Source of the DNA: a virus
Virus record (IMG/VR): IMGVR_UViG_3300043464_000049
Location: 1 to 24,312 of that record
Reading direction: 5' to 3' (one strand)
Length of the DNA stretch: 24,312 bases
In this document: positions 1 through 13,403 of the stretch, one piece after another
Layout of the letters: every line of letters starts with the position of its first letter
Numbering within the stretch: the first letter of the stretch is position 1
The notes under the pieces: model-generated
What the model was told of the DNA's origin: nothing
Seen by the model: only the letters and a program-made list of their open reading frames with translations
Databases searched by the model: none
Made by a program: the position numbers and the translations under genes

Positions 1-44
1 ATGATGATCCCTTTGAACCAATGGATGCCGTTGCTGGCTACTAA
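1..44 (+). CDS. C-terminal end of an upstream gene, possibly large terminase (partial)
   Basis: Frame 3 is open from the window edge and reads DDPFEPMDAVAGY followed by TAA at 42-44. This is a plausible acidic C-terminus of a gene that begins outside the window. Its stop lies directly before the AAGGAG ribosome-binding site of the next gene, which is typical operon spacing. In many podovirus genomes the gene just upstream of the portal is the large terminase, but thirteen residues are too few to identify it. That assignment is inferred from position only. Confidence 0.4.
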   Translation, partial: DDPFEPMDAVAGY

Positions 45-53
45 GGAGCAACT

Positions 54-347
54 ATGTACCTAGAAATGTATAACAAAGAAGACTATGTGCCTCTTAATTG
101 GGACACACTAGCATCTAACCCCGATGTTTGGGAAACAATCAAAGAAGAAATTGAAAAGAAATTCAGTGCAGACTGCATCCTGACTGTCATCACTGCCGCT
201 AAAGAAGCTGGCCTCAAAGACAAGGACATCTTCCTCCCTGTTAAGGATATGGAAGAGGACGAAGAAGAGTACGAAGATATGTCAGAAGGTATGCCTGAGT
301 ATGCAGACCTTGAAGAAGATTCCATTGGCGATACAACTAAGGAATAA
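54..347 (+). CDS. Small acidic phage protein upstream of portal, function unknown
   Basis: The product is 97 aa. The start is supported by AAGGAG at 43-48, five bases before the ATG. Residues 1-65 look like a compact, mostly helical domain. The last 30 residues are extremely acidic, with an EEDEEEYED run, and are probably disordered. The stop is 2 bp before the portal ATG, so the two genes are almost certainly co-transcribed. I do not recognise a family. Its position between a probable terminase and the portal suggests a role in head assembly or DNA packaging, and the acidic tail might contact basic protein or DNA-bound surfaces. Both of those are inference. Confidence 0.75.
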   Translation: MYLEMYNKEDYVPLNWDTLASNPDVWETIKEEIEKKFSADCILTVITAAKEAGLKDKDIFLPVKDMEEDEEEYEDMSEGMPEYADLEEDSIGDTTKE

Positions 348-349
348 GT

Positions 350-2293
350 ATGGAAACCAATAGCCGTGATATGAAGATTTCCGAGTGGGTCCTGTCCCGC
401 TGTGAGAACTGGCGTAACCACCGTGATGAGAACTACCTAGACTATTGGGATTCTTATGAGCGTCTATGGCGTGGTATCTGGGCTGGTGAGGATGTTCATC
501 GTGAGAGCGAAAGATCACGCATTGTAACTCCTGCACTGCAGCAAGCAATTGAGACCTCTGTTGCTGAGATCGAAGAAGCTGTCTTTGGTCGTGGTGAGAA
601 GTTCTTTGACATCGTTGATGACCAAGCAGATCAGGTTAAGATTGACGTTGAGCAAATCAAGCGTCAGATGACTGAAGACTTTAAGCGCAACAAGGTCCGT
701 AAAGACATCAGCGATGTTATCCTACTTGGTGCTGTCTATGGCACTGGCATCGGTGAGATCGTAGTTGCAGAGAAGACTGAGAAGTCGCCTGCTTCGAGGC
801 CGATTGTGGAAATGGGCATCACCGCTGTTGGCGTAGAAGAAAGAACTAAATTTATGGTTGGCCTAAAGCCGATCAATCCCAAGAACTTCTTGATTGACCC
901 TGTTGCTACCAACATCGAAGAAGCACTTGGCTGTGCTGTTGAAGAGTATGTGTCTATCCACAGCGTTGTTGCTGGCATGGAAAGCGGTGTCTACAAGAAA
1001 GTAATGAATCTTGGCCCCACTGCTGTTGACACAGACCTAGAGCCTGTGCAAGAAGAGATCGAGTATCAGCAAGACAAAGTTAAAATGCTTCGTTACTACG
1101 GCCTTGTTCCCAAGTTCTTAATCGAGGCTAACGATGATGAGGAAGTGACATCTCTCTTTAACGAGAAGACTGAAGAGTATGGCACTGAGGCTGCAGACTA
1201 CACAGAACTGGTAGAGGCAATCGTTGTCATCGCTAATGACCAGTATGTTCTTAAGGCTGAGTTGTCGCCTTACATGATGCAGGATCGTCCGATGGTGGCC
1301 TTCCAGTATGACTCCATGCCCAATCGTTTCTGGGGCCGTGGCATCGCTGAGAAAGGCTACAATATGCAGAAAGCTATTGATGCCCAGATCCGTGCCCACC
1401 TAGACTCACTGGCACTGACCACTGTACCGATGATGGGTATCGATGCTACTCGTCTGCCTCGTGGTGCTCGCTTTGAGATTAGGCCAGGCAAGACAATCCT
1501 GACCAACGGCAACCCAAATGAGGTGCTGCAGCCGTTTAAGTTTGGTACTACCGATCCAGGCAACCTGCAGACCGCTGGTGAGTTTATGAAGATGATGCTG
1601 ATGGCAACATCAACCATCGATAGCACCACACCTACGGCTGACGGTGGTGGCCTCAACCCTGCTCTATCGGCAATCATCAAGAAGAATAAGCGTACTCTGG
1701 TGAACTTCCAAGAGCAGTTCTTGATTCCTTTTGTTACCAAGTCTGCCTATCGATTCATGCAGTTTGATCCTGACCGCTATCCTGCTAAAGACTTTGTGTT
1801 TGTACCGACTTCCAACCTCGGTATTGTGGCACGGGAATACGAACAAATGCAGTTTATGAACCTACTGAAGACGCTTGGTCCCGATAGCCCAATTGTTCCG
1901 ATGGTCATGTCAGCGATTATTGAGAACAGTGGACTCTCCAATCGTGAAGAACTTATTCAGCAGATGGCTCAGATGTCACAACCGAATCCGATGGCCGAGA
2001 CAGCAACTCAACTGCAGTTGCAGAGAGCACAGTTAGAGCTTGCTGACCTTGATGCAGATGTCAAACTAAAGCAAGCAAAGACCGCCCAGGCCATTACAGA
2101 TGCACAGTTAAAGCCTGCAGAACTGCAAGCCAACATTGCTGCCTCTGCTTCTAAGTACCTCGGCAACGGCCCAGGCGCTACTGACGAGTTTGAACAGCGT
2201 GTTAAAGTAGCAAATCTAGCACTAAAGGAGAAAGACATTGATACTCGTAGAGAAATTGCTAACCTTCAAATCGTGGCTGCTCGACAAAGTTAA
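350..2293 (+). CDS. Portal protein (head-tail connector)
   Basis: The product is 647 aa, in the size range of podovirus portals. Portals form a dodecameric ring at one capsid vertex through which DNA is packaged and ejected. The N-terminal part (about residues 15-110) is rich in Trp, Arg and Glu (WRNHRDENY, LWRGIWAGED) as in phage portals. The central part holds the mixed alpha/beta stem and wing region, including DRPMVAFQYDSMPNRFWGRG near residues 310-330. About residues 570-647 are a long charged, Ala- and Gln-rich helix or coiled coil (QLQRAQLELADLDADVKLKQ), typical of the C-terminal barrel helices of portal proteins. Scaffold and coat genes follow downstream, as expected. No HK97-type protease gene lies nearby. 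The assignment is based on sequence character and synteny. Confidence 0.88.
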   Translation: METNSRDMKISEWVLSRCENWRNHRDENYLDYWDSYERLWRGIWAGEDVHRESERSRIVTPALQQAIETSVAEIEEAVFGRGEKFFDIVDDQADQVKIDVEQIKRQMTEDFKRNKVRKDISDVILLGAVYGTGIGEIVVAEKTEKSPASRPIVEMGITAVGVEERTKFMVGLKPINPKNFLIDPVATNIEEALGCAVEEYVSIHSVVAGMESGVYKKVMNLGPTAVDTDLEPVQEEIEYQQDKVKMLRYYGLVPKFLIEANDDEEVTSLFNEKTEEYGTEAADYTELVEAIVVIANDQYVLKAELSPYMMQDRPMVAFQYDSMPNRFWGRGIAEKGYNMQKAIDAQIRAHLDSLALTTVPMMGIDATRLPRGARFEIRPGKTILTNGNPNEVLQPFKFGTTDPGNLQTAGEFMKMMLMATSTIDSTTPTADGGGLNPALSAIIKKNKRTLVNFQEQFLIPFVTKSAYRFMQFDPDRYPAKDFVFVPTSNLGIVAREYEQMQFMNLLKTLGPDSPIVPMVMSAIIENSGLSNREELIQQMAQMSQPNPMAETATQLQLQRAQLELADLDADVKLKQAKTAQAITDAQLKPAELQANIAASASKYLGNGPGATDEFEQRVKVANLALKEKDIDTRREIANLQIVAARQS

Positions 2294-2305
2294 ACAAATT
2301 GTCGA
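2281..2305. repeat. Perfect inverted repeat TCGACAA-N11-TTGTCGA over the portal stop codon
   Basis: The arms at 2281-2287 and 2299-2305 are exact 7-bp reverse complements separated by 11 bp. The repeat covers the last codons and stop of the portal gene. It ends 17 bp before the -35 box of the strong promoter. It is followed by A-rich rather than T-rich sequence on the plus strand, so it is not a classical intrinsic terminator. It could be an operator-like site or an mRNA 3' hairpin. Only the symmetry itself is observed. Confidence 0.5.
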
Positions 2306-2322
2306 AAAAGTCAAGAAAACTA

Positions 2323-2351
2323 TTGACAAACTACTAAAATAGTGGTATAAT
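2323..2351 (+). promoter_or_regulatory. Consensus sigma70 promoter with extended -10
   Basis: TTGACA at 2323-2328 and TATAAT at 2346-2351 both match the consensus at every base and are separated by the optimal 17 bp. TG at 2343-2344 gives the extended -10 form TGGTATAAT. The expected start of transcription is about 2358-2359, which is the A of the next gene's ATG or the base before it. No similar promoter was seen elsewhere in the late region. It would let the host RNA polymerase transcribe the two small genes and, depending on read-through, scaffold and capsid. Confidence 0.85.
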
Positions 2352-2358
2352 ATACGCA

Positions 2359-2595
2359 ATGTCGCCAGAATTACAACAATATTACGAAGACAGACTTTCA
2401 ATGATGTCCGGCAAGGCCTGGAAACAACTCATTGAAGACCTTCTAGAGATGCGGATGAACTATGAAAACATCCGCCACTGCGACAAAGACACAGTAGAGT
2501 TCCGAAAAGGACAAGTAGACATCCTAGACTACTTAATTGGACTAAAGGATTTGTCTGAAAAAGCCTACGAGGAACTAAATGAAAAGATATTTTGA
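2359..2595 (+). CDS. Small conserved-type phage protein, probably translated from a leaderless mRNA
   Basis: The product is 78 aa, acidic and helical. The segment YYEDRLSMMSGKAWKQLIED at residues 8-27 resembles, from memory, a small protein found in many podovirus head modules. Its function is unknown. Including that segment requires the ATG at 2359, which sits at the predicted transcription start of the consensus promoter. No Shine-Dalgarno sequence is possible there. The alternative starts at residues 15 and 16 (2401-2406) also lack a clear Shine-Dalgarno and would cut into the segment. The end of the gene overlaps the next ATG by 17 bp, so the two are likely translationally coupled. Initiation from a bare 5' AUG is inferred, not shown. 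Confidence 0.75.
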   Translation: MSPELQQYYEDRLSMMSGKAWKQLIEDLLEMRMNYENIRHCDKDTVEFRKGQVDILDYLIGLKDLSEKAYEELNEKIF

Positions 2596-2824
2596 CTTTC
2601 AGTGTGCCAAAGGCCACATAACTGAAAAATATATTGATGATTCTGTAAAAGTCATACAGTGTCCCCACTGTGGAAATGACGCTAGCAGGCTCATCGCTGC
2701 TCCTAGAGTTAGTTTGGAAGGCATTACGGGTGATTTTCCTGGTGCTTCAATGGCATGGGAACGTAAACGCCAAGAAAAGATAGCTTGGGAGCGTAAAACT
2801 GGTCGCTCTGACCAGTGGAAATGA
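2579..2824 (+). CDS. FmdB-like zinc-ribbon protein
   Basis: The product is 81 aa. The N-terminal segment has one zinc half-site C9-x3-H13 (CAKGH) and a second C28-x2-C31 (CPHC). It opens with YFDFQC, as in the FmdB family of small zinc-ribbon proteins, where a CxxC is more usual for the first half-site. The C-terminal half contains GDFPGASMAWERKRQEK and is strongly charged. The start overlaps the previous gene by 17 bp, with GAGGA about 6 bp upstream. Small zinc ribbons of this type are common beside phage head genes. The exact role is unknown, and either a structural metal site or a transcription-linked function is possible. Confidence 0.72.
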   Translation: MKRYFDFQCAKGHITEKYIDDSVKVIQCPHCGNDASRLIAAPRVSLEGITGDFPGASMAWERKRQEKIAWERKTGRSDQWK

Positions 2825-2829
2825 GAGAC

Positions 2830-2859
2830 AAGGAACCCTCTCACCTTTTTAGGTTCTTT
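2830..2859 (+). terminator. Weak terminator-like hairpin before the scaffold gene
   Basis: AAGGAACC at 2830-2837 can pair with GGTTCTTT at 2852-2859 (eight pairs, one G-U) around a 14-base loop that holds five T. A few further T follow. The stem is AT-rich and the loop is long, so any termination would be partial. It may act as an attenuator or only as an mRNA boundary. Confidence 0.3.
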
Positions 2860-2889
2860 TCTTAATGCTGTTAAGCACGGAGAGACATT

Positions 2890-3684
2890 ATGGCTGCTTT
2901 TATTGAGGACGGCTCGGTAGAGTCGCAAACTTCTGTTGTTACCGATGAACAAACTACCCCTACTGTAGAAGATAACACAGTTACAGAGGCGGTGCAAGAG
3001 CAAGATGAGGGCTTACCTGACAAATACAGGAACAAAAGCGCCAAAGAGATTGCTCAGATGCACATGGAGGCCGAGAAGTTAATTGGTCGCCAAGGTAGCG
3101 AGGTAGGTGAACTACGGAAGATTGTAGACGAGTATATCCGAACCCAAGCCGCAGCGAAACAGCAACTGCAAGCCCAGTCTACTGAAGAGGTTGACTACTT
3201 CGCAGATCCGAAGAAAGCAATAGAGAACGCAATTGAGAGTCATCCAAAGGTCAAACAGGCCGAACAGTTGGCTCTTGAAATGCAACGAGCAAAGGCTTTA
3301 AATGCATTGCAGGCTGCTCACCCTGACTTTCAGAATGTAGTTCGTGATCCAGCTTTCCAAAACTGGGTTGCTGGCTCTAAAGTTCGGTCAGAGTTGTTTG
3401 TTAGAGCAGACCAGTACTACGATTATGATTCTGCAAATGAACTGTTGTCGCTGTATAAGGACCGCAGAGGCTCTGCAGAGCAGACTGTAGCTGCTGAGAA
3501 GCAAGCACGAAGCCAAGCAGTTAAAGCAGCGACTACTACTGTTGCTACGGGAAGCGATGAAGCACCTACTAAGAAGATTTATAGGCGTGCAGACATTATG
3601 AAACTCATGCAAACTGACCCAGATCGTTACGATATGATGCAGCCTGAGATTATGGCGGCCTATCGTGAAGGCAGGGTTAGGTAA
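2890..3684 (+). CDS. Capsid scaffolding-type protein
   Basis: The product is 264 aa, very hydrophilic and predicted largely helical. Residues 1-40 are an acidic, Thr- and Gln-rich, probably disordered leader. Residues 42-83 (LPDKYRNKSAKEIAQMHMEA and GSEVGELRKIVDEYI) match the pattern I know from phage scaffolds placed between portal and coat. Residues 84-225 are Ala- and Gln-rich helix. The basic C-terminus (about 228-264, with RRADIMKLMQTDPDRYDMMQ) looks like the capsid-binding helix-turn-helix end of scaffolds. Scaffolds direct coat assembly and leave the procapsid before or during packaging. The position directly before the coat gene supports this. A GGAGAG ribosome-binding site lies upstream. 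Confidence 0.82.
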   Translation: MAAFIEDGSVESQTSVVTDEQTTPTVEDNTVTEAVQEQDEGLPDKYRNKSAKEIAQMHMEAEKLIGRQGSEVGELRKIVDEYIRTQAAAKQQLQAQSTEEVDYFADPKKAIENAIESHPKVKQAEQLALEMQRAKALNALQAAHPDFQNVVRDPAFQNWVAGSKVRSELFVRADQYYDYDSANELLSLYKDRRGSAEQTVAAEKQARSQAVKAATTTVATGSDEAPTKKIYRRADIMKLMQTDPDRYDMMQPEIMAAYREGRVR

Positions 3685-3713
3685 ACTAACAATATTACGA
3701 AAGGAATTTAAAA

Positions 3714-4691
3714 ATGGCTAATACAGCATTCGCTCCAAATAATGCGGTTACTAAATCCGCAGTTGATACCGCAGGTTTCGTACCTGAAGTATGGTCTGAC
3801 GAGATTATCGCTGCCTATAAGAAGAACCTGGTAGCTGCTAACCTCATCAAGAAGATGAACTTCAAAGGCAAGAAAGGCGACAAAGTCTACTTTCCTGCTC
3901 CCACTCGTGGTTCTGCTTCTGCTAAGACTGCTACCGATGCAGTTACTCTGATCGCTGCTGGTGGTACGGCTCTGTCGGTTTCTATCGACAAGCACTTTGA
4001 GTACAGCCGCTTGATCGAAGACCTTGCTGAAGTTCAAGCTATGTCCTCGCTGCGCCGTTTCTACACGGATGACGCTGGCTATGCTCTGGCTACTCAGCTT
4101 GACACCGATGTTATCCGTCTGGGTCGTCTGTCGCAAGGCGGTACTTGGAACGGTACTGATGCTACCTTTGCTTATGGCAACGGTTACATCGGTGGTGACG
4201 GCGCTACAGCATTTGATGCTACCGCTAACACCAACACTGGTAACGAGACTGCTCTGACGGATGAGGGCATTCGCCGTGCAATTCAGCGTCTTGATGACAG
4301 CGATGTTCCGATGGATGGTCGTTTCCTGATTGTTCCTCCGGTTGCTCGTAACACGCTGATGGGTCTTGCTCGCTTTACTGAGCAGGCTTTCACTGGTGAG
4401 TCCGGCAACGGAAACACGATCCGTAACGGTCAGATTGGCGACATCTATGGCATCAAAGTCTATGTGTCCACCAACGCTGATACCGCTACCACCGCTGGTA
4501 CTGGTGACGTTAACCCCCGTGTGTGCTTGATGGCACATCCTGAGTTTGGCGTTCTGGTTGAGCAGCTTGGTGTTCGTGTTCAGACCCAGTACAAGCAAGA
4601 GTACCTTGCCACGCTGCTGACCGCTGATACGCTTTACGGCGTTGGCGAACTGCGTGACACCTCTGCTGTTGCTCTCATTATCCCTGGTTAA
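3714..4691 (+). CDS. Major capsid protein
   Basis: The product is 325 aa. A clear AAAGGA ribosome-binding site lies ahead of the ATG. The N-terminus (FVPEVWSDEIIAAYKKNLVA, then KKGDKVYFPAPTRGSASAKT) is typical of unprocessed phage coat proteins of the HK97 fold. In these an N-terminal arm is followed by the E-loop region, here about residues 60-85. The segment DTDVIRLG at about residues 130-137 and the later NTLMGLARFTEQAF fit the peripheral domain. The protein ends in VALIIPG. Codons favour the same set throughout, as expected for a highly expressed gene, and a strong terminator follows directly. No -1 frameshift extension of the T7 gp10B type is apparent. Confidence 0.9.
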   Translation: MANTAFAPNNAVTKSAVDTAGFVPEVWSDEIIAAYKKNLVAANLIKKMNFKGKKGDKVYFPAPTRGSASAKTATDAVTLIAAGGTALSVSIDKHFEYSRLIEDLAEVQAMSSLRRFYTDDAGYALATQLDTDVIRLGRLSQGGTWNGTDATFAYGNGYIGGDGATAFDATANTNTGNETALTDEGIRRAIQRLDDSDVPMDGRFLIVPPVARNTLMGLARFTEQAFTGESGNGNTIRNGQIGDIYGIKVYVSTNADTATTAGTGDVNPRVCLMAHPEFGVLVEQLGVRVQTQYKQEYLATLLTADTLYGVGELRDTSAVALIIPG

Positions 4692-4698
4692 TTCTAAT

Positions 4699-4723
4699 GG
4701 CCCCGCTTCGGCGGGGTCTTCTT
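4699..4723 (+). terminator. Intrinsic terminator after the capsid gene
   Basis: GGCCCCGC at 4699-4706 pairs with GCGGGGTC at 4711-4718 (one G-T pair) around a TTCG loop closed by C-G, the very stable UUCG tetraloop. TCTTCTT follows. It lies 8 bp after the capsid stop codon. It probably gives partial termination, setting coat messenger levels above the downstream genes. Confidence 0.85.
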
Positions 4724-4742
4724 AACTAAATAGGAGATAATT

Positions 4743-5069
4743 ATGGCTGCAAGTAGCGTTGTTGTAAAAGAAGGTCGTGAACAGTTTGGTGGTGTCTTCT
4801 CTAAAGTTTGGGCCGCTAAAGGGACCATTAACTTTGCTGAAGTTGCCGATGGCGATGAGGCTGTAGACACCATTGCTGTTCCTGGTGTTGCTCTTGGTGA
4901 TGTAGTTGTTGCCATCTCTGCATCTATTGATGTAGAAGATCTTGGCCTAACTGCTGCTGTTACCGCTGCAAACGAAGTAACTGTACAAGTGTGGAACAAT
5001 ACTGGCGCAGGCATTAACCTTGCCTCTGCTGTGTATAAAGTAATCGTAGCTCGTACGATCTTTGAATAA
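4743..5069 (+). CDS. Probable capsid decoration or minor head protein
   Basis: The product is 108 aa, with an AGGAG ribosome-binding site. It is rich in Val, Ala and Gly and predicted all-beta. The pattern GDVVVAISASIDVEDLGL then ANEVTVQVWNNTGAGINLAS resembles small beta-sandwich virion proteins often found next to the coat gene in marine phages. It is flanked on both sides by intrinsic terminators and directly follows the coat gene. That context suits a protein needed in many copies, such as a decoration or head-stabilising protein. No catalytic motif was seen. Function is inferred from context; a tail protein is a possible alternative. Confidence 0.65.
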   Translation: MAASSVVVKEGREQFGGVFSKVWAAKGTINFAEVADGDEAVDTIAVPGVALGDVVVAISASIDVEDLGLTAAVTAANEVTVQVWNNTGAGINLASAVYKVIVARTIFE

Positions 5070-5082
5070 ACCTAATGGTTTT

Positions 5083-5104
5083 GCCTCTTCGGAGGCTTTT
5101 CTTT
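5083..5104 (+). terminator. Intrinsic terminator after the decoration gene
   Basis: GCCTC at 5083-5087 pairs with GAGGC at 5092-5096 around a TTCG loop, followed by TTTTCTTT. The same 14-base core occurs on the minus strand at the end of the ribonucleotide reductase operon. A smaller hairpin (AAACC TAAT GGTTT) lies immediately upstream, over the stop codon. Confidence 0.82.
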
Positions 5105-5147
5105 AGCATCTTTACTGAGGGTGTTAAAGAAAAAATAGGGAGCAAAA

Positions 5148-5447
5148 ATGATACCTCGTTGTTTTCCTACAACTTATGTTACTGCAAATGGTGCTACTAA
5201 GATGGTTGTCAATAACCTAGCCAGCACCACTGGTTTGAAGGAATGGATTGATTATATTCCTGTCAAGAAACTTGCAGTAGAGCCAACACAAAAGAATACT
5301 TATTCTACCGGAATGTGGGTTGATGTATTAGCAAGCACCACAGGTAAGCAAGCAGGCAAAGACTATATCAATGTATACGAAGATGCTGCCAAGACTGTAG
5401 CATGGTCTTCTAGCAACAACGGCTATATTCCTATTTGGTACACATAA
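5148..5447 (+). CDS. 99-aa virion-associated protein with an internal repeat, unknown function
   Basis: The start is supported by AGGGAG about 6 bp before the ATG. The protein is Thr-, Ser- and aromatic-rich and probably beta-structured. It contains the motif LASTTG followed by a DYI(P/N)V motif twice, near residues 25-40 and 61-76, which suggests two short repeated units. It follows a terminator and ends one base before the first fibre gene's ATG. It is therefore probably expressed with the fibres and may be a small fibre-associated or head-fibre component. I do not recognise a family. Confidence 0.6.
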   Translation: MIPRCFPTTYVTANGATKMVVNNLASTTGLKEWIDYIPVKKLAVEPTQKNTYSTGMWVDVLASTTGKQAGKDYINVYEDAAKTVAWSSSNNGYIPIWYT

Positions 5448-5448
5448 T

Positions 5449-6666
5449 ATGTCATTCTATCGTCCAGGTGGTTCAGGTTCAGGCAGTGTAACAACTACGC
5501 CTGTACAGGTTGGTGAAGGCGGCACTGGCGCTACAACTGCTAGTGCTGCAAGAACTAATCTAGGTCTTGGTACTATCGCTACTCAAAATGCTAACAATGT
5601 CAGCATTACTGGTGGCACAGTCATTAACGTCAGCGACATCGCTGTAGCTGATGGCGGCACTGGCGCATCAACTGCTGATGGCGCACTTGCTAATCTACTG
5701 CCTTCATACTCAAATAATGCTAACAAAGTTCTTAGCGTTAAGTCCGATGCCTCTGGTGTAGAGTGGACCACTAACGGTGCTGGTACTGTTACCAGTGTTG
5801 CAGCATCAGTGCCTACAGGTCTTTCTATCAGCGGCACACCGATTACCTCCAGTGGTACACTTGCAATTACCTACGCTTCAGGCTATGCTATTCCTACGAC
5901 AGCAAAGCAGACAGATTGGGATACAGCATACACAGATCGTCTGAAGTGGGATGGTGGCGCTACTGGCCTAACAGCTTCAACAGGCCGTACTAGCCTTGGC
6001 CTTGGTACAATTGCAACGCAAGATGCCAGTAACGTAGCTATCACTGGCGGCTCTGTTAGCGGTATTACTGACTTAGCAGTCGCTGATGGCGGTACTGGTG
6101 CTTCTACAGCCGCCAATGCTCGTATAAACTTACTACCATCTTATACCAGCAACGGTTCTAAGGTATTAGCATTAAACAGTGGTGCTACTGATGTTGAGTG
6201 GATTTCTGCTGGCGGCTCTGGTACAGTTACATCAGTTGACTTGTCTGTACCAACTGGCCTAGCAGTTAGTGGTAATCCTGTAACCACTAGCGGCACATTA
6301 GCAATTACTTTTGCTTCTGGCTACAGCATACCCACCACAACTAAGCAGAGTGAGTGGGATACTGCTTATACTGATAGACTTAAATGGGATGGCGGTAGCA
6401 CAGGCTTAACTGCATCAACTGGTCGCACTTCATTAGGCGCTACCACTGTTGGCGCTAACATATTTACTCTAACGAATCCATCCGCAGTTACTTTTGTAAG
6501 GATGAACGCAGATAATACTGTTACTGCTCGGTCTGCATCTGAATTAAAAACTGATCTTTCTCTCAATAACGTAGAGAATACAGCCTTGTCAACTTGGGCT
6601 GGTTCTGCTAACATTACAACGGTTGGAACCGTTTCAACTGGCACTATTGCTGGAGGCACTTACTAA
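5449..6666 (+). CDS. Tail fibre-like repeat protein
   Basis: The product is 405 aa. It contains the collagen-like but non-helical fibre motif GGTGA(T/S)TA at residues 24-31, 69-76 and 214-221, which is widespread in phage tail fibres. A unit of about 146 residues is repeated twice (39-183 and 184-330). Each unit ends in a nearly identical block with AYTDRLKWDGG. The C-terminus reads GTVSTGTIAGGTY. No hydrolase motif is visible, so it is more likely a structural or receptor-binding fibre than a depolymerase. The codons for the final Gly-Gly (GGA GGC) form the GGAGG Shine-Dalgarno of the next gene, whose ATG overlaps the stop by one base. Confidence 0.8.
   Translation: MSFYRPGGSGSGSVTTTPVQVGEGGTGATTASAARTNLGLGTIATQNANNVSITGGTVINVSDIAVADGGTGASTADGALANLLPSYSNNANKVLSVKSDASGVEWTTNGAGTVTSVAASVPTGLSISGTPITSSGTLAITYASGYAIPTTAKQTDWDTAYTDRLKWDGGATGLTASTGRTSLGLGTIATQDASNVAITGGSVSGITDLAVADGGTGASTAANARINLLPSYTSNGSKVLALNSGATDVEWISAGGSGTVTSVDLSVPTGLAVSGNPVTTSGTLAITFASGYSIPTTTKQSEWDTAYTDRLKWDGGSTGLTASTGRTSLGATTVGANIFTLTNPSAVTFVRMNADNTVTARSASELKTDLSLNNVENTALSTWAGSANITTVGTVSTGTIAGGTY
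5563..6438 (+). repeat. Two tandem units of about 437 bp inside the fibre gene
   Basis: Unit 1 covers 5563-5997 and unit 2 covers 5998-6438. Matching landmarks (GLGTIATQ, VADGGTGAST, GTVTSV and AYTDRLKWDGG) are offset by 144-146 residues. Protein identity is high, but the DNA has diverged strongly at synonymous sites. This is therefore an old or codon-diversified duplication rather than a recent one. Confidence 0.85.
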
Positions 6667-7382
6667 TGGCTACCATTCTTCTCAAAAAACGTGATACCAC
6701 TGGCGCTCCTGGTGCTGGCGATCTAACTAACTCTGCTTCTGGCGCTGAAGTTGCAGTTAATACTTTTGATAAGCGCCTTTACAGTAAAGACAGCGGCGGC
6801 AACGTAGTCGAACTAGGCATCAATCCTACTTCGGTCACTACTGGTGCTCTGACTGCTACTGGCACTACTACCCTGGCTACATCGCTGACTGGCGTACTAA
6901 AGGCAGCATCTGGTGTTGTGTCTTCCGCTGTTAGTGGAACCGACTATGCTCCTGCTACGTCTGGAACAAGTATTCTAAAAGGCAACGGATCTGGTGGTTT
7001 TTCTAACGCCACCGCCGGTACGGACTACGCTGGCCTAGCAACCGCACAGTCCTTCACAAAAGCCCAGCGTGGCTCTATCGTGACCCTGACAGACGGTGCA
7101 ACTATCACCCCAGACTTTGCTGATGCCAATAACTACACGGTGACTCTGGGCGGCAACCGTACTCTGGCAAACCCAACCAACCTCACCGCAGGACAGTCTG
7201 GCTCTATATTTGTGGTGCAAGATGGTACTGGTTCTCGTACACTTGCCTACGGCTCCTACTGGGACTTCTCTGGCGGCACAGCACCTACGTTGACGACTAC
7301 GGCCAATGCTATTGACCGGATTGACTATGTTGTGAGATCGACAACTTCCATCCACGCAGTCTTTACAGCAAATTACTCATAA
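6666..7382 (+). CDS. Tail fibre or minor virion protein with C-terminal beta domain
   Basis: The product is 238 aa. The N-terminal 50 residues (LLKKRDTTGAPGAGDL, then GAEVAVNTFDKRLYSKDSGG) follow the common phage fibre start that binds the rest of the particle. Residues 85-125 carry two GTDYA-type repeats (VSGTDYAPATSGTSILKGNG) that are typical of fibre shafts. Residues 135-238 are a beta-rich domain (TITPDFADANNYTVTLGGNR and RIDYVVRSTTSIHAVF) seen at the ends of many aquatic phage structural proteins. It overlaps both neighbours by one base (TAATG), so all three fibre genes form one translational unit. The receptor or partner is unknown. Confidence 0.75.
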   Translation: MATILLKKRDTTGAPGAGDLTNSASGAEVAVNTFDKRLYSKDSGGNVVELGINPTSVTTGALTATGTTTLATSLTGVLKAASGVVSSAVSGTDYAPATSGTSILKGNGSGGFSNATAGTDYAGLATAQSFTKAQRGSIVTLTDGATITPDFADANNYTVTLGGNRTLANPTNLTAGQSGSIFVVQDGTGSRTLAYGSYWDFSGGTAPTLTTTANAIDRIDYVVRSTTSIHAVFTANYS

Positions 7383-9826
7383 TGGCTATTCTCAATAACA
7401 ACCCTCTGATTGGCGCATCTGGTCAAAGCAAGGGCTATCGCATCGAGCGCAGTCTGCGGTTTAACTCTGATGACTCTGCGTACCTGGATAGGACGCTTGG
7501 AACTCCAACTAACGGGAAAATTTTTACTTTTTCTGTGTGGCTTAAACGCAGTACATTAAGCACGCTACAGTCAATTATGACTGCTAAAAGCGGGGGCAAT
7601 GAAGATTCTTTTGCATTTCTTTCAGGAGATACATTAAGGCTGTTTTTTAGTGCATATAGTAGTAGTGGTTTAACAACAAACGCTGTTTTTCGAGATGTAT
7701 CGGCTTGGTATCACATCGTATTGGCGGTTGACACTACTCAAGCAACCGCAAGTAATCGGGTAAAAATGTACGTAAATGGCGTTGAACAGACGTTTACAGG
7801 ATCTAATTACCCATCGCAAAATGCTACGCCTTTCTTTAATACTGCCCTACAGCATTTTATTGGTAGATACGCAAACCAGCCTATGCCAGCAGGTAATTTC
7901 AACGGCTACATGACCGAGATCAACTTCATCGACGGTCAGGCACTAACGCCATCCTCCTTCGGCCAGACAAACTCAGCCACGGGCGTATGGGAGCCTAAGG
8001 CCTACTCTGGCAGCTACGGCACTAACGGCTTTTATCTCAAGTTTGCTGACAACTCTGGCACTACGTCTACAACGCTCGGCAAAGACTCCTCTGGCAACAG
8101 CAACAACTGGACACCTAATGGTTTCTTACTTACCCCACCAAAAGATAATGACAGCCTAGTAGACAGCCCAACCCAGTACGGCACAGACACGGGTGCTGGT
8201 GGTGAGGTGCGTGGTAACTATGCAACCCTTAGTGCAATTGCGTCATCTTTTGGGTTTTCTAGTTCTGGGACTCCAACAATATCAAACGGGAATTTGACTG
8301 CTGTTTCATCCGCTCAAAATCAACATCAATTTACAGCACCTTTTGGTTTATCAAGCGGAAAATGGTATTGGGAAATTACACTCAATTCCACTCCAACAGA
8401 ATTAGAAATTGGTGTAACTGGAGAGCCTTTTACAGACAACAATTCACCATTCGCAACAGGCGAAGGTGCAAAGTCTTGGACTGCGTTCCCATATAGTGCT
8501 TCAGGGCCGGTCTATAACAACAACTCAGCCGCATCCGGAACATTTATTGCAAGCGCAGCAAGTGGAGATGTATTAAGAATTGCAGTAGATATGGATAACG
8601 GCAAGATTTTTTGGGGTAAAAATGGAACGTGGACGAATAGCGCAGACCCCGCCGCCGGAACAGGGTTTTCACATAGCAATTTAAGCGGAACCGTTGTGCC
8701 TGCTTTTGGGCAATCTGGTAATGGGTATTCTTATAATTTTGATGTCAACTTCGGCCAGCGCCCCTTTGCCTACACCGCACCGTCAGGCTTCAAAGCACTA
8801 TGTACGACTAACCTGCCCACGCCTACTATCGGGGCGACTGCGACGACTAGGGCAGATGATTACTTTAATACGGTGCTGTATACGGGGAATACGCCATCAA
8901 CAAACGCAATTACTGGTGTTGGTTTTGCCCCAGATCTTGTTTGGGTTAAATCTAGAACTGTTGCGGAATCACATAACTTAGTAGATAAAGTTCGTGGTAA
9001 TAATTTAAGATTAAAAAGCAATGAAACAACCGCAGAAGCATCAGCAACATTTACTCTTGATTCTGATGGATTTACTGTTGGAGCAAACTCAGAATCAAAT
9101 ACAGGCAGCATGGTAGGATGGGCATGGAAAGCCAACGGCGCTGGTTCATCTAACACACAAGGCACTATCACCAGCACAGTAAGCGCAAATACAACTGCTG
9201 GCTTTAGTATCGTGACGTATACGGCAGCCGGAGCTAACTCAACAGTCGGTCATGGATTAGGTGTTGCGCCTAGCATGATTATTCTTAAGCGCAGAGACTC
9301 AACAGGTGGATGGGCAACGTACCATACGTCTATTGGCAATACAAAGTATTTAGTTCTTAACGCAACTGACGCTGCTACAACAGAAGCTACTTATTGGAAC
9401 AACACAAGCCCAACATCAACGGTGTTTTCGTTGGGGTCTATTTGGCCCAATAACGCAACCTACGTTGCCTACTGCTTCGCACCTGTCGCTGGCTACTCTG
9501 CGTTTGGCTCCTATACAGGTAATGGCTCTAGTGACGGTCCTATGGTGTACACGGGCTTTAGGCCAGCTTTCGTAATAGTGAAATGCACAAATGCAGCAGG
9601 AAACTCATGGGTAATAGAAGATGATCAACGCCCCGCATATAATCCTGCTGACTATCTGCTTGCAAATAGTAGCGGCGCTGAAGGGTCTGGAGCTACTTAT
9701 CCTTTCGACATTCTTTCAAACGGATTTAAGTTACGAAATACTGTTCAGGCATGGAACGGTAGCGGTGATAGCTACATCTACATGGCCTTTGCCGATTCAC
9801 CATTCAAGTACTCGCTCGCACGATAA
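7382..9826 (+). CDS. Large adhesin with LamG, SPRY-like and DUF7483-like repeats
   Basis: The product is 814 aa. Residues about 22-195 form a LamG/concanavalin-like lectin domain: FTFSVWLKR, then WYHIVLAVDTTQ, then VKMYVNGVEQ, ending with YMTEINFIDGQ. Residues about 320-458 look like a SPRY domain (GKWYWEITL, LEIGVTGEPF, LRIAVDMDNGKIFWGKNGTW). Three copies of a DUF7483-like module follow at about 495-585, 605-700 and 707-812. They are recognised by GVGFAPDLVWVKSR, GLGVAPSMIILKRRD and GFRPAFVIVKC, each ending in a W- or Y-x-A-(W/Y/F) strand. This multi-lectin build points to a receptor-binding tail or capsid fibre. GC content by eye varies between about 32% and 57% among blocks, suggesting assembly by recombination. 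No enzyme motif was found. Confidence 0.8.
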   Translation: MAILNNNPLIGASGQSKGYRIERSLRFNSDDSAYLDRTLGTPTNGKIFTFSVWLKRSTLSTLQSIMTAKSGGNEDSFAFLSGDTLRLFFSAYSSSGLTTNAVFRDVSAWYHIVLAVDTTQATASNRVKMYVNGVEQTFTGSNYPSQNATPFFNTALQHFIGRYANQPMPAGNFNGYMTEINFIDGQALTPSSFGQTNSATGVWEPKAYSGSYGTNGFYLKFADNSGTTSTTLGKDSSGNSNNWTPNGFLLTPPKDNDSLVDSPTQYGTDTGAGGEVRGNYATLSAIASSFGFSSSGTPTISNGNLTAVSSAQNQHQFTAPFGLSSGKWYWEITLNSTPTELEIGVTGEPFTDNNSPFATGEGAKSWTAFPYSASGPVYNNNSAASGTFIASAASGDVLRIAVDMDNGKIFWGKNGTWTNSADPAAGTGFSHSNLSGTVVPAFGQSGNGYSYNFDVNFGQRPFAYTAPSGFKALCTTNLPTPTIGATATTRADDYFNTVLYTGNTPSTNAITGVGFAPDLVWVKSRTVAESHNLVDKVRGNNLRLKSNETTAEASATFTLDSDGFTVGANSESNTGSMVGWAWKANGAGSSNTQGTITSTVSANTTAGFSIVTYTAAGANSTVGHGLGVAPSMIILKRRDSTGGWATYHTSIGNTKYLVLNATDAATTEATYWNNTSPTSTVFSLGSIWPNNATYVAYCFAPVAGYSAFGSYTGNGSSDGPMVYTGFRPAFVIVKCTNAAGNSWVIEDDQRPAYNPADYLLANSSGAEGSGATYPFDILSNGFKLRNTVQAWNGSGDSYIYMAFADSPFKYSLAR

Positions 9827-9837
9827 CGGAGATCAAC

Positions 9838-10368
9838 ATGGCTTTTCAACTTAACGGACAACCCATCGCCTTAGATACGGCGTTTACTACGCCTGATGGC
9901 ACGCAGTATCCGGCCAACTGGATCAGGCTTGCCTCGCCATCGGAAAGAGCCGCTATCGGCATCACCGAGGTCGCAGACCCAGAGTATTACGATCAGCGTT
10001 TCTACTGGGGGCCAGGCAATCCCAAACTGCTCAATGACCGCCTAGAGACCAAGGAAGATGGCTCACCGCTATATGTCCAAGTCTACGATCCTGCGACTGA
10101 GAGCATGGTTGATACTAATGAACAAGTAGTCACTAAAGGCTTAAAGTCAAACTGGACCGCACAAGTTAAAGACACGGCTGGCAAGTTACTAGCCCAGACA
10201 GACTGGATGGTTACCCGCAAGGTCGAGCGTAACGTAGATATCCCTGCTGGCGTGGTAGCCAAGCGTGCGGCTATCGTTGCTGAGTGCGCCAGACTTGAGA
10301 CTGCTATCTCTGCCTGCTCAAGCGTAGAGGCGCTGATTGCGGTTGTTGCTTCTCAGAACTGGGCCTAA
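9838..10368 (+). CDS. Fibre-assembly-like phage protein
   Basis: The product is 176 aa, with GGAG about 7 bp before the ATG. The N-terminus (FQLNGQPIALDTAFTTPDG, then YPANWIRLASPSERAAIGI) and the segment DWMVTRKVERNVDIPAGVV at about 122-140 follow the pattern of fibre-associated or assembly proteins. In these a DWxxxR segment precedes a C-terminal helical region with YR- or KR-AAI motifs. Residues 140-176 are helical. It comes directly after the big adhesin and overlaps the next gene by one base, as expected for a fibre chaperone or assembly factor. The name is inferred from pattern and position, and a structural role is the alternative. Confidence 0.65.
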   Translation: MAFQLNGQPIALDTAFTTPDGTQYPANWIRLASPSERAAIGITEVADPEYYDQRFYWGPGNPKLLNDRLETKEDGSPLYVQVYDPATESMVDTNEQVVTKGLKSNWTAQVKDTAGKLLAQTDWMVTRKVERNVDIPAGVVAKRAAIVAECARLETAISACSSVEALIAVVASQNWA

Positions 10369-10571
10369 TGATGACTTCGCACATCTCTGAAGGCACTAAG
10401 CACGCTGTAGATGCAGTGTCTGTTATGACAGTGATTGGTACACTAGCACAGATTCTACCATCAATAGCTGCATTATTTACTATTGTGTGGACATCTTTTA
10501 GGATCTACGAAACTAAAACAGTTCAAGGATGGTTAGGCAAAGGAGCCAAAGATGAAGAAGCCAACGACTAA
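10368..10571 (+). CDS. Small holin-like membrane protein
   Basis: The product is 67 aa, the same size class as T7 gp17.5. One clear hydrophobic stretch at about residues 17-44 (VMTVIGTLAQILPSIAALFT) is followed by the amphipathic FRIYETKTVQGWLG and a charged tail. A hydrophilic N-terminus, one membrane span and a charged C-terminus fit a small holin or holin-like protein. Two ATG codons stand in tandem at the start and the first overlaps the upstream stop (TAATGATG). It is far from the endolysin, which has its own 3-TM holin neighbour. It may therefore be the main holin, an accessory holin or another membrane protein. Confidence 0.62.
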   Translation: MMTSHISEGTKHAVDAVSVMTVIGTLAQILPSIAALFTIVWTSFRIYETKTVQGWLGKGAKDEEAND

Positions 10572-10749
10572 AGCAGGCAAAGCAGAAAAAGTAGGCAAAG
10601 TAATGAGTGAATACAAAAGCGGTACACTACATAGCGGTAAAGGTGGCCCCGTTGTCAAGTCACGCAAGCAGGCTGTAGCGATTGCAATGTCGCAAGCTGG
10701 TATGTCCAAGAAACCAATGATGATGAAGAAAGCTGGCCGTGGTCGCTAA
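10552..10749 (+). CDS. Small very basic protein, DUF6496-like
   Basis: The product is 65 aa with 14 Lys, 3 Arg and only 2 acidic residues (net about +15). The core EYKSGTLHSGKGG then VKSRKQAVAIAMSQAGMSK matches the pattern of DUF6496 proteins, also found in bacteria. The start overlaps the holin-like gene by 20 bp and is served by AAAGGAG about 8 bp upstream. Function is unknown. The charge suggests nucleic acid binding, and it is the first of three consecutive basic mini-proteins. Confidence 0.78.
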   Translation: MKKPTTKAGKAEKVGKVMSEYKSGTLHSGKGGPVVKSRKQAVAIAMSQAGMSKKPMMMKKAGRGR

Positions 10750-10888
10750 AAAAGGCCTCTACTACAACATCCAGGCCAAGCGTAAACGCATCGCTGAAGG
10801 CTCAGGCGAGAAGATGCGTAAACCTGGTTCCAAAGGTGCGCCAACAGCTAAGGCATTTAGAGAAGCCAAGAAGACTGCGAAGAAATAA
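10739..10888 (+). CDS. 49-aa basic protein with GTG start (easily missed)
   Basis: The frame starts at GTG 10739 and ends at TAA 10886-10888, giving 49 aa. Key segments are AKKGLYYNIQAKRKRIAEG and EKMRKPGSKGAPTAKAF. These match, from memory, a short phage protein usually found beside DUF6496 and DUF6321 genes. It has 12 Lys, 4 Arg and 3 Glu (net about +13). It overlaps the previous gene by 11 bp and its stop overlaps the next ATG by one base, filling what would otherwise be a 140-bp gap in a tightly packed operon. GTG is the only start candidate in frame here. Function is unknown. Confidence 0.75.
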   Translation: MVAKKGLYYNIQAKRKRIAEGSGEKMRKPGSKGAPTAKAFREAKKTAKK

Positions 10889-11133
10889 TGGTAAAGAAAG
10901 TCTATCAGAACAAAGAAGGTGGCCTCAATGCCAAAGGTAGAGCCTATTTCAAGCGTACTGAAGGCGCTAATCTCAAACCACCCGTATCGGCCAAACAAGC
11001 CTCTAAATCGCCTAAAGCAGCGGCACGCAGGAAGTCCTTCTGTGCAAGGATGTCAGGAGTTCCTGGGCCACTCAAAGATGAAAAAGGCAGACCAACAAGG
11101 AAGGCCTTAGCACTAAGAAAATGGGATTGCTAA
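10888..11133 (+). CDS. Small basic protein, DUF6321-like
   Basis: The product is 81 aa with 14 Lys, 8 Arg and 5 acidic residues (net about +17). The pattern LNAKGRAYFKRTEGANLKPP, then KAAARRKSFCARMSGV, ending GRPTRKALALRKWDC, is that of DUF6321 proteins, which are common in aquatic phages and some bacteria. Two Cys (52 and 81) are present. The start overlaps the previous stop by one base, and the stop is directly followed by the adaptor gene's ATG. Function is unknown. A DNA-binding or head-completion role is conceivable from charge and position. Confidence 0.78.
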   Translation: MVKKVYQNKEGGLNAKGRAYFKRTEGANLKPPVSAKQASKSPKAAARRKSFCARMSGVPGPLKDEKGRPTRKALALRKWDC

Positions 11134-11790
11134 ATGGCAACTACATATTTAACTTTAGTAAATGATGTACTGACTAGGCTTCGTGAGACAACAGTAGCGT
11201 CTGTATCTGAGAATGACTACAGTGCGCTTATTGGTAAGTTAGTCAACGATGCCAAGCGTGAAGTAGAAGATGCTTGGAACTGGGAGTGCCTCAAAAGCAC
11301 TTATACCATTGCTACGTCCTCTGGCACTACTTCCTATGCACTAGATGGTGCTGGTCAGAAGTTTAGGCTCTATGAGGCTGTAAACGATACTAATGACTGG
11401 TATCTGCGTGAGCGTTCTGCTGCGTTCATGACAGAGAACTATTCACTTCTTCCTTCTCCTGTATCTGGGCCAACAACAGACTATGCCTTTAACGGCCTTG
11501 ATGTCAACGGTGATGTTCAGGTTGATGTGTATCCACAGCCTGATGCTGTTTACACTCTACGCTTTAATGGCTTTACACCAGAGGCAGAACTTAGTGCCAA
11601 CTCAGATCAGACTAAGTTGCCTAAGTCTCCCATCGTTGCTCTGGCTTGGGCAAAAGCCATTGAAGAGCGTGGGGAGGATGGCGGTGTCAACGTCAGCAGC
11701 CAATATGCGGTAGCTAAACAGTCTTTGGCTGACCATATTGCTATCGAAGCTGGTCGCAGACCTGAAGAATCTATCTGGTACTGGGTATAA
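11134..11790 (+). CDS. Head-tail adaptor protein (SU10 adaptor-like)
   Basis: The product is 218 aa. The N-terminus (YLTLVNDVLTRLRETTV, then LIGKLVNDAKREVEDAWNWE) is the characteristic helical start of podovirus adaptor proteins, which sit under the portal. The middle is beta-rich (RLYEAVNDTNDWYLRERS, DVQVDVYPQPDAVYTLRFNG). The C-terminal helices (IVALAWAKAIEERGED, then YAVAKQSLADHIAIE) complete the fold. T7 gp11 has the equivalent role. It joins the portal to the nozzle encoded by the next gene, whose ATG overlaps its stop by one base. The match to the SU10 adaptor family is from memory of the pattern. Confidence 0.8.
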   Translation: MATTYLTLVNDVLTRLRETTVASVSENDYSALIGKLVNDAKREVEDAWNWECLKSTYTIATSSGTTSYALDGAGQKFRLYEAVNDTNDWYLRERSAAFMTENYSLLPSPVSGPTTDYAFNGLDVNGDVQVDVYPQPDAVYTLRFNGFTPEAELSANSDQTKLPKSPIVALAWAKAIEERGEDGGVNVSSQYAVAKQSLADHIAIEAGRRPEESIWYWV

Positions 11791-13403
11791 TGCCGAACAA
11801 ACCACTACAAGCAACATCAATCACAGCACCAGGATATTTTGGTCTAAACACCCAAGATTCCGGTGTTGATATGAACAGTGCCTTTGCATTGATTGCAAGG
11901 AACGCTGTTATTGACCGATATGGTCGTATTGGTGCTAGGAAAGGATGGCTTTATAAGACTACTTCTGGTGGTACGTCATCGTTACCAGAGGTGGTTGCTG
12001 AGTTTGATAACTACGATGGCACTTACAGTATTCTGTCATTTGGTAACAATAAGCTGTTTGTTGGCGAAACAACGATGACAGAGAAGTTAGTTCGTAATGC
12101 TAACAACAGCGGTAACGCAACTTATACCATAACAGGTAATAACTGGCAAGTCATACCAGCACAGTACAGCAGTGGTTTGACAGCATCGCCTCATGCGCTT
12201 ATAGTACAGGAAGGCCACAAGCCTTTAATGTATCATAAGATGCCTAGTAGTGGTGGTGCTGCTCATGCACACAATGGTGCATTTGGTTTTCAGTTGTTGT
12301 CTGATGTTGGTACAGTGCCGTCAGGCTTCTCAGCATCAACATTCTTGCCTCGCTGTGGCATCGGTGCTTTTGGCCGCACTTGGCTTGCTAATATTAGTGA
12401 CATAGATAAGCTGACTGTATACTACAGTAGATTATTAGATCCTAGTGACTTTACTGGTTCTGGCTCTGGTGTAATCAACCTAGAAAAGGTTGTTCCTGGC
12501 GATGACAGAATTATTGCACTAGCTGCTCACAATGATTTCCTAATCATCTTCTGTGAGAATAATATTGTTATCTACAACAGTGCCTCTAATGTGTCTAATC
12601 TGGCACTGCAGGATGTGATTGTAGGTGTTGGTTGTATCTCTAGAGATTCTGTGCAGAACATTGGCACAGATGTGTTGTTTCTTAGTGCCACTGGTGTGCG
12701 CTCATTAGCAAGAACTATACAGGAGAAGTCTGCACCAGTTAGGGACATTAGCCGTAACGTTAGAGACACATTACTAGATTATATTGCTAGTGAGAATACA
12801 GAGAACATTAGAAGCGTCTACTTTGCTTCAGATGCTTTCTATCTACTGACGTTGCCTAACTCTGGATTTACTTACTATTTTGATTTAAGGCAGTTCTTGC
12901 AAGATGGTTCCGCAAGAGCAACTGTATGGGACAACATCTCTCCAAGGGGATTGTGTGCCACTCGTGATCGCAGATTGCTTTTGGGGAAGACCAATGGAAT
13001 TGCTCAATACACTGGCTATAACGATAACTCATCAACATACATTTTTTCTTATTATACTCCTTATCTTGACTTTGGGTCACCGTCTGTGATAAAGATGTTA
13101 AAGAAGATTGGTATTGTTACTGTCGGCGCTGCTGCTACTACCTTTGACATTAAGTGGGCCTTTGACTATTCCAACGACTATAAGTCAACCCAGATTACTA
13201 CAGTTTCTGGCGATGTGTCTGAATATGGAATAGCAGAGTATGGTATTGCTGAATACTCAGCATCTATTTTTCTTGAGAACCTAAAAAGACAACTATCTGG
13301 TAACGGCAACGTTGTTCAGATAGGCGTTGACGCAGAGGTAAATGGCCATCCTGTGTCTATTCAAAAACTTGACATTTATGCTGTTACTGGAAGGACTATA
13401 TAA
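11790..13403 (+). CDS. Tail nozzle-like protein (tubular protein B type)
   Basis: The product is 537 aa. The N-terminus (SITAPGYFGLNTQDSGVDMN, then FALIARNAVIDRYGRIGARKG) resembles podovirus nozzle or stabilisation proteins. A series of beta-strand repeats with FDNYDGTYSILSFGNNKLF, LIIFCENNIVIYNS and AFYLLTLPNSGFTYYFDLRQ suggests a beta-propeller body. Near residue 480 is the short tandem repeat EYGIAEYGIAEYS, also characteristic of this family as I recall it. Its place directly after the adaptor fits the distal part of a short tail. It overlaps the adaptor by one base and the 76-aa gene by one base. Confidence 0.78.
   Translation: MPNKPLQATSITAPGYFGLNTQDSGVDMNSAFALIARNAVIDRYGRIGARKGWLYKTTSGGTSSLPEVVAEFDNYDGTYSILSFGNNKLFVGETTMTEKLVRNANNSGNATYTITGNNWQVIPAQYSSGLTASPHALIVQEGHKPLMYHKMPSSGGAAHAHNGAFGFQLLSDVGTVPSGFSASTFLPRCGIGAFGRTWLANISDIDKLTVYYSRLLDPSDFTGSGSGVINLEKVVPGDDRIIALAAHNDFLIIFCENNIVIYNSASNVSNLALQDVIVGVGCISRDSVQNIGTDVLFLSATGVRSLARTIQEKSAPVRDISRNVRDTLLDYIASENTENIRSVYFASDAFYLLTLPNSGFTYYFDLRQFLQDGSARATVWDNISPRGLCATRDRRLLLGKTNGIAQYTGYNDNSSTYIFSYYTPYLDFGSPSVIKMLKKIGIVTVGAAATTFDIKWAFDYSNDYKSTQITTVSGDVSEYGIAEYGIAEYSASIFLENLKRQLSGNGNVVQIGVDAEVNGHPVSIQKLDIYAVTGRTI

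Follow-up and report, generated by a model that had tools for sequence, protein, structure and literature searches.

Does a gene inside a phage capsid operon begin at the 5' end of its mRNA, with no room for a ribosome-binding leader? The question is raised by a linear 24-kb IMG/VR fragment (the window, i.e., the whole stretch of 24,312 nt that was analysed), in which a sigma-70-type promoter, named P2, is followed almost immediately by the ATG of p78, a gene for a 78-residue protein. According to the original prediction, this promoter fits the consensus throughout and fires at the ATG, so that p78 would be read from a leaderless mRNA within a phage head module. The features of the locus are as follows:

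350-2293, + strand: portal protein gene, upstream of P2 (PHROG 1216, E 9.1e-41)
2323-2328, + strand: -35 hexamer TTGACA of P2, identified by sequence; in relatives the first two T are invariant and the other bases are kept in 26-34 of 36 distinct upstream sequences
2343-2351, + strand: extended -10 element TGGTATAAT of P2, with the hexamer TATAAT at 2346-2351
2352-2357, + strand: discriminator, from the -10 element to the predicted +1; variable in sequence and constant in length among relatives
2358, + strand: predicted transcription start A2358 (alternative 2359), placed by the sigma-70 spacing rule
2359-2595, + strand: p78, 78 aa, predicted four-helix protein, first cistron of the putative P2 transcript
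2579-2824, + strand: Zn-ribbon gene, 81 aa, Zn_ribbon_8-like below the Pfam cut-off; overlaps the end of p78; own Shine-Dalgarno (SD) sequence GAGGA
2890-3684, + strand: probable scaffold protein gene, positioned as the scaffold gene of Saffermanviridae; own SD; downstream in the putative P2 transcript
3714-4691, + strand: major capsid protein (MCP) gene (PHROG 267, E 3.8e-47); own SD; downstream in the putative P2 transcript

A Near-Consensus Promoter at the p78 Start Codon

P2 contains every element of a sigma-70 extended -10 promoter (TTGACA, a spacer of 16-18 nt, TGN, and TATAAT): its spacer measures 17 nt and ends in TGG (2343-2345), the TG of the extended -10 element being 2343-2344. In the promoter scan it scores 12/12 with the TG and is the sole 12/12 site in positions 1-12000. 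The pattern TTGACA-N16..18-TATAAT is expected by chance 0.014 times per window, judged on both strands of 1000 dinucleotide-shuffled versions of the whole window, and with the TG added it appeared in none of the 1000. Sequence and shuffles thus bear out a near-consensus extended -10 promoter ahead of ATG 2359; the stronger wording, agreement with the consensus at every position, stands for both hexamers, the spacer length and the TG, but not for the remainder of the spacer, which has no consensus.

The -10 element and the ATG (2359-2361) are separated by the 7 nt ATACGCA (2352-2358). The predicted +1 is the seventh or eighth base after the -10 element, which would leave a leader of 0-1 nt. Among the 36 distinct upstream sequences, base 7 is an A in 31, and the other five, with 9-nt spacing, have an A at base 8. 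We infer from this arrangement that P2 is active in transcription and that its exact +1 is A2358 or its neighbor.

Genomic Context and Translation Start of p78

The gene order is 97-aa gene, portal, p78, Zn-ribbon, probable scaffold, and MCP, which places p78 within a phage head module as predicted, with the portal upstream and scaffold and MCP downstream. The portal-scaffold-MCP order and a remote MCP similarity are shared with Saffermanviridae (Pf-WMP3, A-4L), the MCP identity being 27-33% over approximately 75% of the length, and the p78-Zn-ribbon pair is absent there. Elsewhere in the window, positions 20663-22552 on the - strand encode a B12-dependent (class II) ribonucleotide reductase with an insertion domain. 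For p78 itself, no match was found in Pfam, PHROG or PDB and no solved fold is alike; its matches in BFVD are uncharacterised proteins.

Over the 20 nt ahead of position 2359, anti-SD pairing is weak (-2.8 kcal/mol), against -5.6 to -8.3 kcal/mol for the flanking head genes. Several later genes of the window pair as weakly as p78, thus a weak SD alone does not make this gene special. It does combine two traits expected of a leaderless mRNA, namely no SD before 2359 and an AUG start.

The start codon could in principle lie further downstream, at the adjacent methionines M15/M16 (2401/2404), which would give P2 a conventional leader of approximately 43 nt. Both ATGs are conserved in the window clade, and such a start would account for a p78 subclade in which the codon aligned with 2359 is CTA or ATA. 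However, position 2401 is likewise without an SD (-1.0 kcal/mol), and the marine and other SD-bearing relatives begin at the same N-terminus as the 2359 product. In codons 2-14, the pairwise ratio of nonsynonymous to synonymous changes is 0.35 as opposed to approximately 4:1 at neutral sites, i.e., synonymous changes are far above neutral expectation; in the CTA/ATA subclade the p78 ratio is 0.96, on 45 differences only. The AlphaFold2 model of p78 comprises four helices (mean pLDDT 91.7), the first of which spans residues 3-16 with high confidence and would be removed by a start at M15/M16. We therefore reject M15/M16 on the codon substitution pattern and helix 1, and consider this start very improbable. 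A conserved leader ending at M15/M16, which the original prediction had named as evidence against itself, was looked for, and the segment in question proved to be 14 codons conserved as protein. Conservation, codon substitutions and the predicted fold support translation of p78 from 2359.

Conservation of P2 and p78 Among Relatives

The window p78 alone retrieved 97 relatives from IMG/VR, and re-querying with distant members yielded more. Among 50,697 annotated phage records the gene has no match, which marks the lineage as essentially uncultured. One p78 was found on a 3-kb contig in an actinobacterial MAG, which may be mis-binned, and relatives of the TerL and exonuclease are scattered over many hosts. 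The order portal-p78-Zn-ribbon-scaffold-MCP is kept across relatives. Judged by these sequences, p78 is a core gene of a large uncultured podovirus lineage, most lineages of which have P2 at this place.

The portal-to-p78 gap ranges from 33 to 672 nt in relatives, via differing spacers and inserted genes. Despite this variation, the -10 element stays 7 nt from the codon aligned with 2359 in 62 loci, 8 nt in eight and 9 nt in two. Both hexamers and the TG are conserved across the 36 distinct upstream sequences, and the discriminator is variable; the -10 element is nearly invariant except that its hexamer has T or G as third base. The conservation of promoter-to-ATG spacing, proposed as a check of the original prediction, was thus recovered: in the p78 cluster of the window the distance is 7 nt in 45 of 70 loci and 8 nt in 6-7, and four further clusters have 6-9 nt.

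P2 was also found by a scan blind to the protein, in which viral contigs were searched for a perfect extended promoter followed by an ATG. Among the matches listed, 223 loci were fetched, and in 11 of these the promoter lies ahead of a p78 homolog (profile E 1e-29 to 2e-8). The portal gene is just upstream in all 11, and the Zn-ribbon, scaffold and MCP genes follow wherever the contig extends. Thus, P2 appears to be a conserved internal promoter of the head module and not a trait of one clade. When all 121-133 candidate starts were scored in three related genomes, that of p78 stood out as a lone outlier (score 13-14 versus 8.5-9 for the next) and as the sole start with such a promoter.

These synteny data bear on another explanation, in which p78 and the Zn-ribbon gene would be a moron, i.e., a cassette with its own transcription that was inserted into the head operon. 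The pair does have its own promoter and is missing between portal and scaffold of Saffermanviridae. A moron would be expected to bring its own terminator and to occur sporadically; instead, the pair is fixed at the same place in nearly all relatives, the gap 3' of the Zn-ribbon gene folds no better than shuffled sequences (z 0.24), and the scan found no + strand terminator after that gene. Core synteny leads us to reject the cassette, the least probable of the explanations considered here.

Other Promoters and Inserted Genes

In relatives, a second consensus sigma-70 promoter, P1, precedes the terminase genes and has a leader of >100 nt (L084:4842-4870 in genome G001, with equivalents in G002, G003, G006, G007, and G010). 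No consensus promoter was found in the stretches scanned on the divergent early side of relatives. Because P1, with a normal leader, drives the upstream late genes, recognition by the host polymerase does not set p78 apart. The benefits suggested in the original prediction, namely translation when ribosomes are altered or early expression by the host polymerase alone, are speculative. A search for phage RNA polymerase (PF00940) gave no match in five relatives, and the positive control likewise gave none; in the 36-kb relative G003, none of the large ORFs resembles a phage RNA polymerase.

Several lineages carry reverse-strand endonuclease VII/HNH-like genes (PHROG 3322) between portal and p78, for instance at L008:4636-5250 (-), L067:3754-4335 (-), and similar loci. 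Insertion of an endonuclease gene, in the form of two differing genes, replaces the -35 side of P2; the -10 element and the 7-nt spacing stay. One inserted reverse-strand endonuclease gene has its own promoter and a leader with the SD AGGAGG. The notion that leaderlessness is a general habit of the lineage was discarded in view of this SD leader and the long leader of P1.

Two Arrangements of Promoter and Start Codon

We surveyed the spacing in 318 p78 loci that fall into 20 clusters (70% identity), and found the distance from the -10 element to the start codon to be bimodal. The 6-9 nt class comprises 128 loci from five p78 clusters (that of the window, L464, L077, L558, and L249), with an SD in 0/128 and ATG in 128/128. 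The 30-66 nt class comprises 53 loci, all 53 with an SD, of which 43 start with GTG or TTG. Only two loci, both at 11 nt, fall between the classes. These counts include re-fetched contigs and related loci and are not independent events; the 128 and 53 loci correspond to 52 and 32 unique protein-architecture combinations, respectively. By cluster, ATG is the start in five of five leaderless-type clusters versus two of the seven leadered clusters with starts listed. Where no promoter was detected, roughly half of the loci have an SD; 'no SD' in this group may include weak SDs, since the upstream SD was called from a motif list. The absence of an SD from the whole 6-9 nt class, together with the weak pairing at 2359, upholds the claim that p78 starts without one. 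Leaderless initiation prefers AUG (PMC9031893), and the ATG-only starts of this class fit that preference. In cluster L558, the aligned codon is ATA or GTA and a new ATG 6 nt upstream gives a spacing of 6 or 9 nt.

The leadered sister clades (L516 and the L551-L554 type, e.g., L517:1410-1500) carry a fixed 5' UTR, located approximately 50 nt upstream of p78. It has a hairpin TGTTGTA-GAAA-TACAACA near the predicted 5' end, followed by TCCT-NNNN-AGGAG, in which the SD can pair with TCCT. This UTR is possibly a transcript stabiliser or a translational control element.

In 17 loci of three lineages (a subclade of the window cluster, L449, and L572), P2 is intact and the predicted +1 falls downstream of the sole usable start. 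Fifteen of them belong to the window's own cluster and have CTA or ATA at the codon aligned with 2359, the nearest in-frame NTG being 1 nt after the -10 element. The ATG follows the -10 element by 3 nt in L449 and overlaps it in L572; the promoter is otherwise consensus. Hence, mRNA from P2 cannot encode full p78 at these 17 loci. Many members of another cluster, L227, are without P2 (58 loci of the no-promoter class and 26 of the no-promoter class with SD); since most L227 loci lack both P2 and an SD, a missing SD by itself is weak evidence. Leaderlessness as a necessary property of p78, as the original prediction implied, does not survive the 15 loci with an NTG 1 nt after the -10 element or the lineages that combine the same promoter with SD leaders of 30-66 nt.

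These exceptions are what would be expected if P2 were real and drove the Zn-ribbon, scaffold and capsid genes, while p78 was made essentially from P1 read-through mRNA; the closeness of P2 to the ATG would then be intergenic compaction, with negligible leaderless translation. P2 is retained where the p78 start precedes the predicted +1, the downstream genes have their own SDs, and many relatives keep p78 without P2. Such compaction does not, however, predict the bimodal spacing, with SDs absent at 6-9 nt, always present at 30 nt or more, and two loci between, nor the ATG-only starts of the short class if translation from P2 mRNA is unimportant, nor the shift of the L558 start by 6 nt with a spacing of 6 or 9 nt still held. 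We regard exclusive supply by read-through as improbable, though clearly less so than the M15/M16 start.

Proposed Role of P2

In the account that we consider probable, P2 is a sigma-70 promoter inside the late operon that serves its capsid half, and p78 is the usually leaderless first cistron. Host RNA polymerase would start at A2358 or 2359 and transcribe p78 and the genes for Zn-ribbon, scaffold and capsid into one mRNA, which would supplement read-through from the upstream late promoter P1. This mRNA would begin 0-1 nt before the AUG, p78 would be read from it as a leaderless cistron, and the later cistrons would use their own SDs. P2 may in this way boost scaffold and capsid expression. 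The account is built on the promoter, spacing, synteny, and SD and start-codon patterns, all read directly from the sequences. Because P2 stays intact in loci whose start is upstream of +1, its purpose is most likely to transcribe the genes for Zn-ribbon, scaffold and capsid; p78 can also be read from P2 mRNA in most cases, though not in all. The conserved part is the promoter; the predicted leaderless reading of p78 is the commoner of two ways to translate the first cistron, the other being the 30-66 nt SD leader.

Leaderless reading of this cistron might also be a selected regulatory state, with lineages switching between the leaderless and the structured SD-leader form; we hold this to be rather unlikely. 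The p78 tree has few columns, thus leader gain and loss cannot be polarised on it. If selection did act, the translation mode of p78 would differ from that of scaffold and capsid on the same mRNA, e.g., in the response to initiation-factor levels during infection.

Relation to Known Systems

In T7, the promoter phi10 before the capsid gene is recognised by the phage polymerase and has an SD leader. Like the putative P2, it is an internal promoter that boosts scaffold and capsid within the late genes; unlike it, phi10 uses the phage enzyme and an SD leader, whereas P2 is host-type and, in the window clade, predicted to be without leader. The classic leaderless phage mRNA is that of lambda cI, the lysogeny repressor, transcribed from the regulated promoter PRM. 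It shares with p78, for which these traits are predicted, a start codon at or near the 5' end of a phage mRNA made by the host sigma-70 RNA polymerase (PMC9031893); cI is a lysogeny repressor, whereas p78 is a small capsid-operon gene in a phage without evidence of lysogeny. The SigA promoters of cluster O mycobacteriophages include some that are predicted to be leaderless, their +1 falling on the first codon; one of these serves a gene within a structural operon (PMC4351075). These resemble P2 in being predicted leaderless and, in that one case, lying inside a structural operon, but the phages are unrelated, their host is actinobacterial, and the case concerns a leftward gene and not the head of a capsid transcript. 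In Deinococcus-Thermus, a -10 motif lies approximately 6-7 bp before ORFs without an SD, in about a third of D. radiodurans genes (PMC12340547). The short distance and the missing SD are as in p78; here, by contrast, one gene per phage genome is concerned, with a full -35 hexamer and extended -10 element.

The arrangement is not rare in viral contigs: among the matches listed, an ATG 6-8 nt after an extended promoter is the start of an ORF of 60 aa or longer in 66/130 cases, as against 27/114 for an ATG at 11-13 nt, the two scans being comparable only as fractions opening ORFs. That about half of the 6-8 nt matches listed (L249 to L326) open ORFs suggests that leaderless starts may be under-annotated in phages. 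In L277, L280, and L318, the ATG of another gene (132-140 aa, MELEDPFSVSGVLDTAAWARTG...) lies 7 nt after a consensus extended promoter, and in L277 and L318 this gene is just upstream of a portal relative.

Leaderless phage mRNAs are thus already known, mostly as single repressor genes or unconfirmed predictions; P2-p78 is a well-supported further case, set apart by its conservation and by the existence of leadered counterparts. Within the p78 family, promoter and protein stay the same while the leader varies: it is missing (0-2 nt), long and equipped with an SD, or so out of place that the start codon lies upstream of +1. With such a natural series, the costs and benefits of leaderless initiation can be tested within a single operon. 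The rules of spacing, SD and start codon described here can also help to correct start calls in metagenomic phages.
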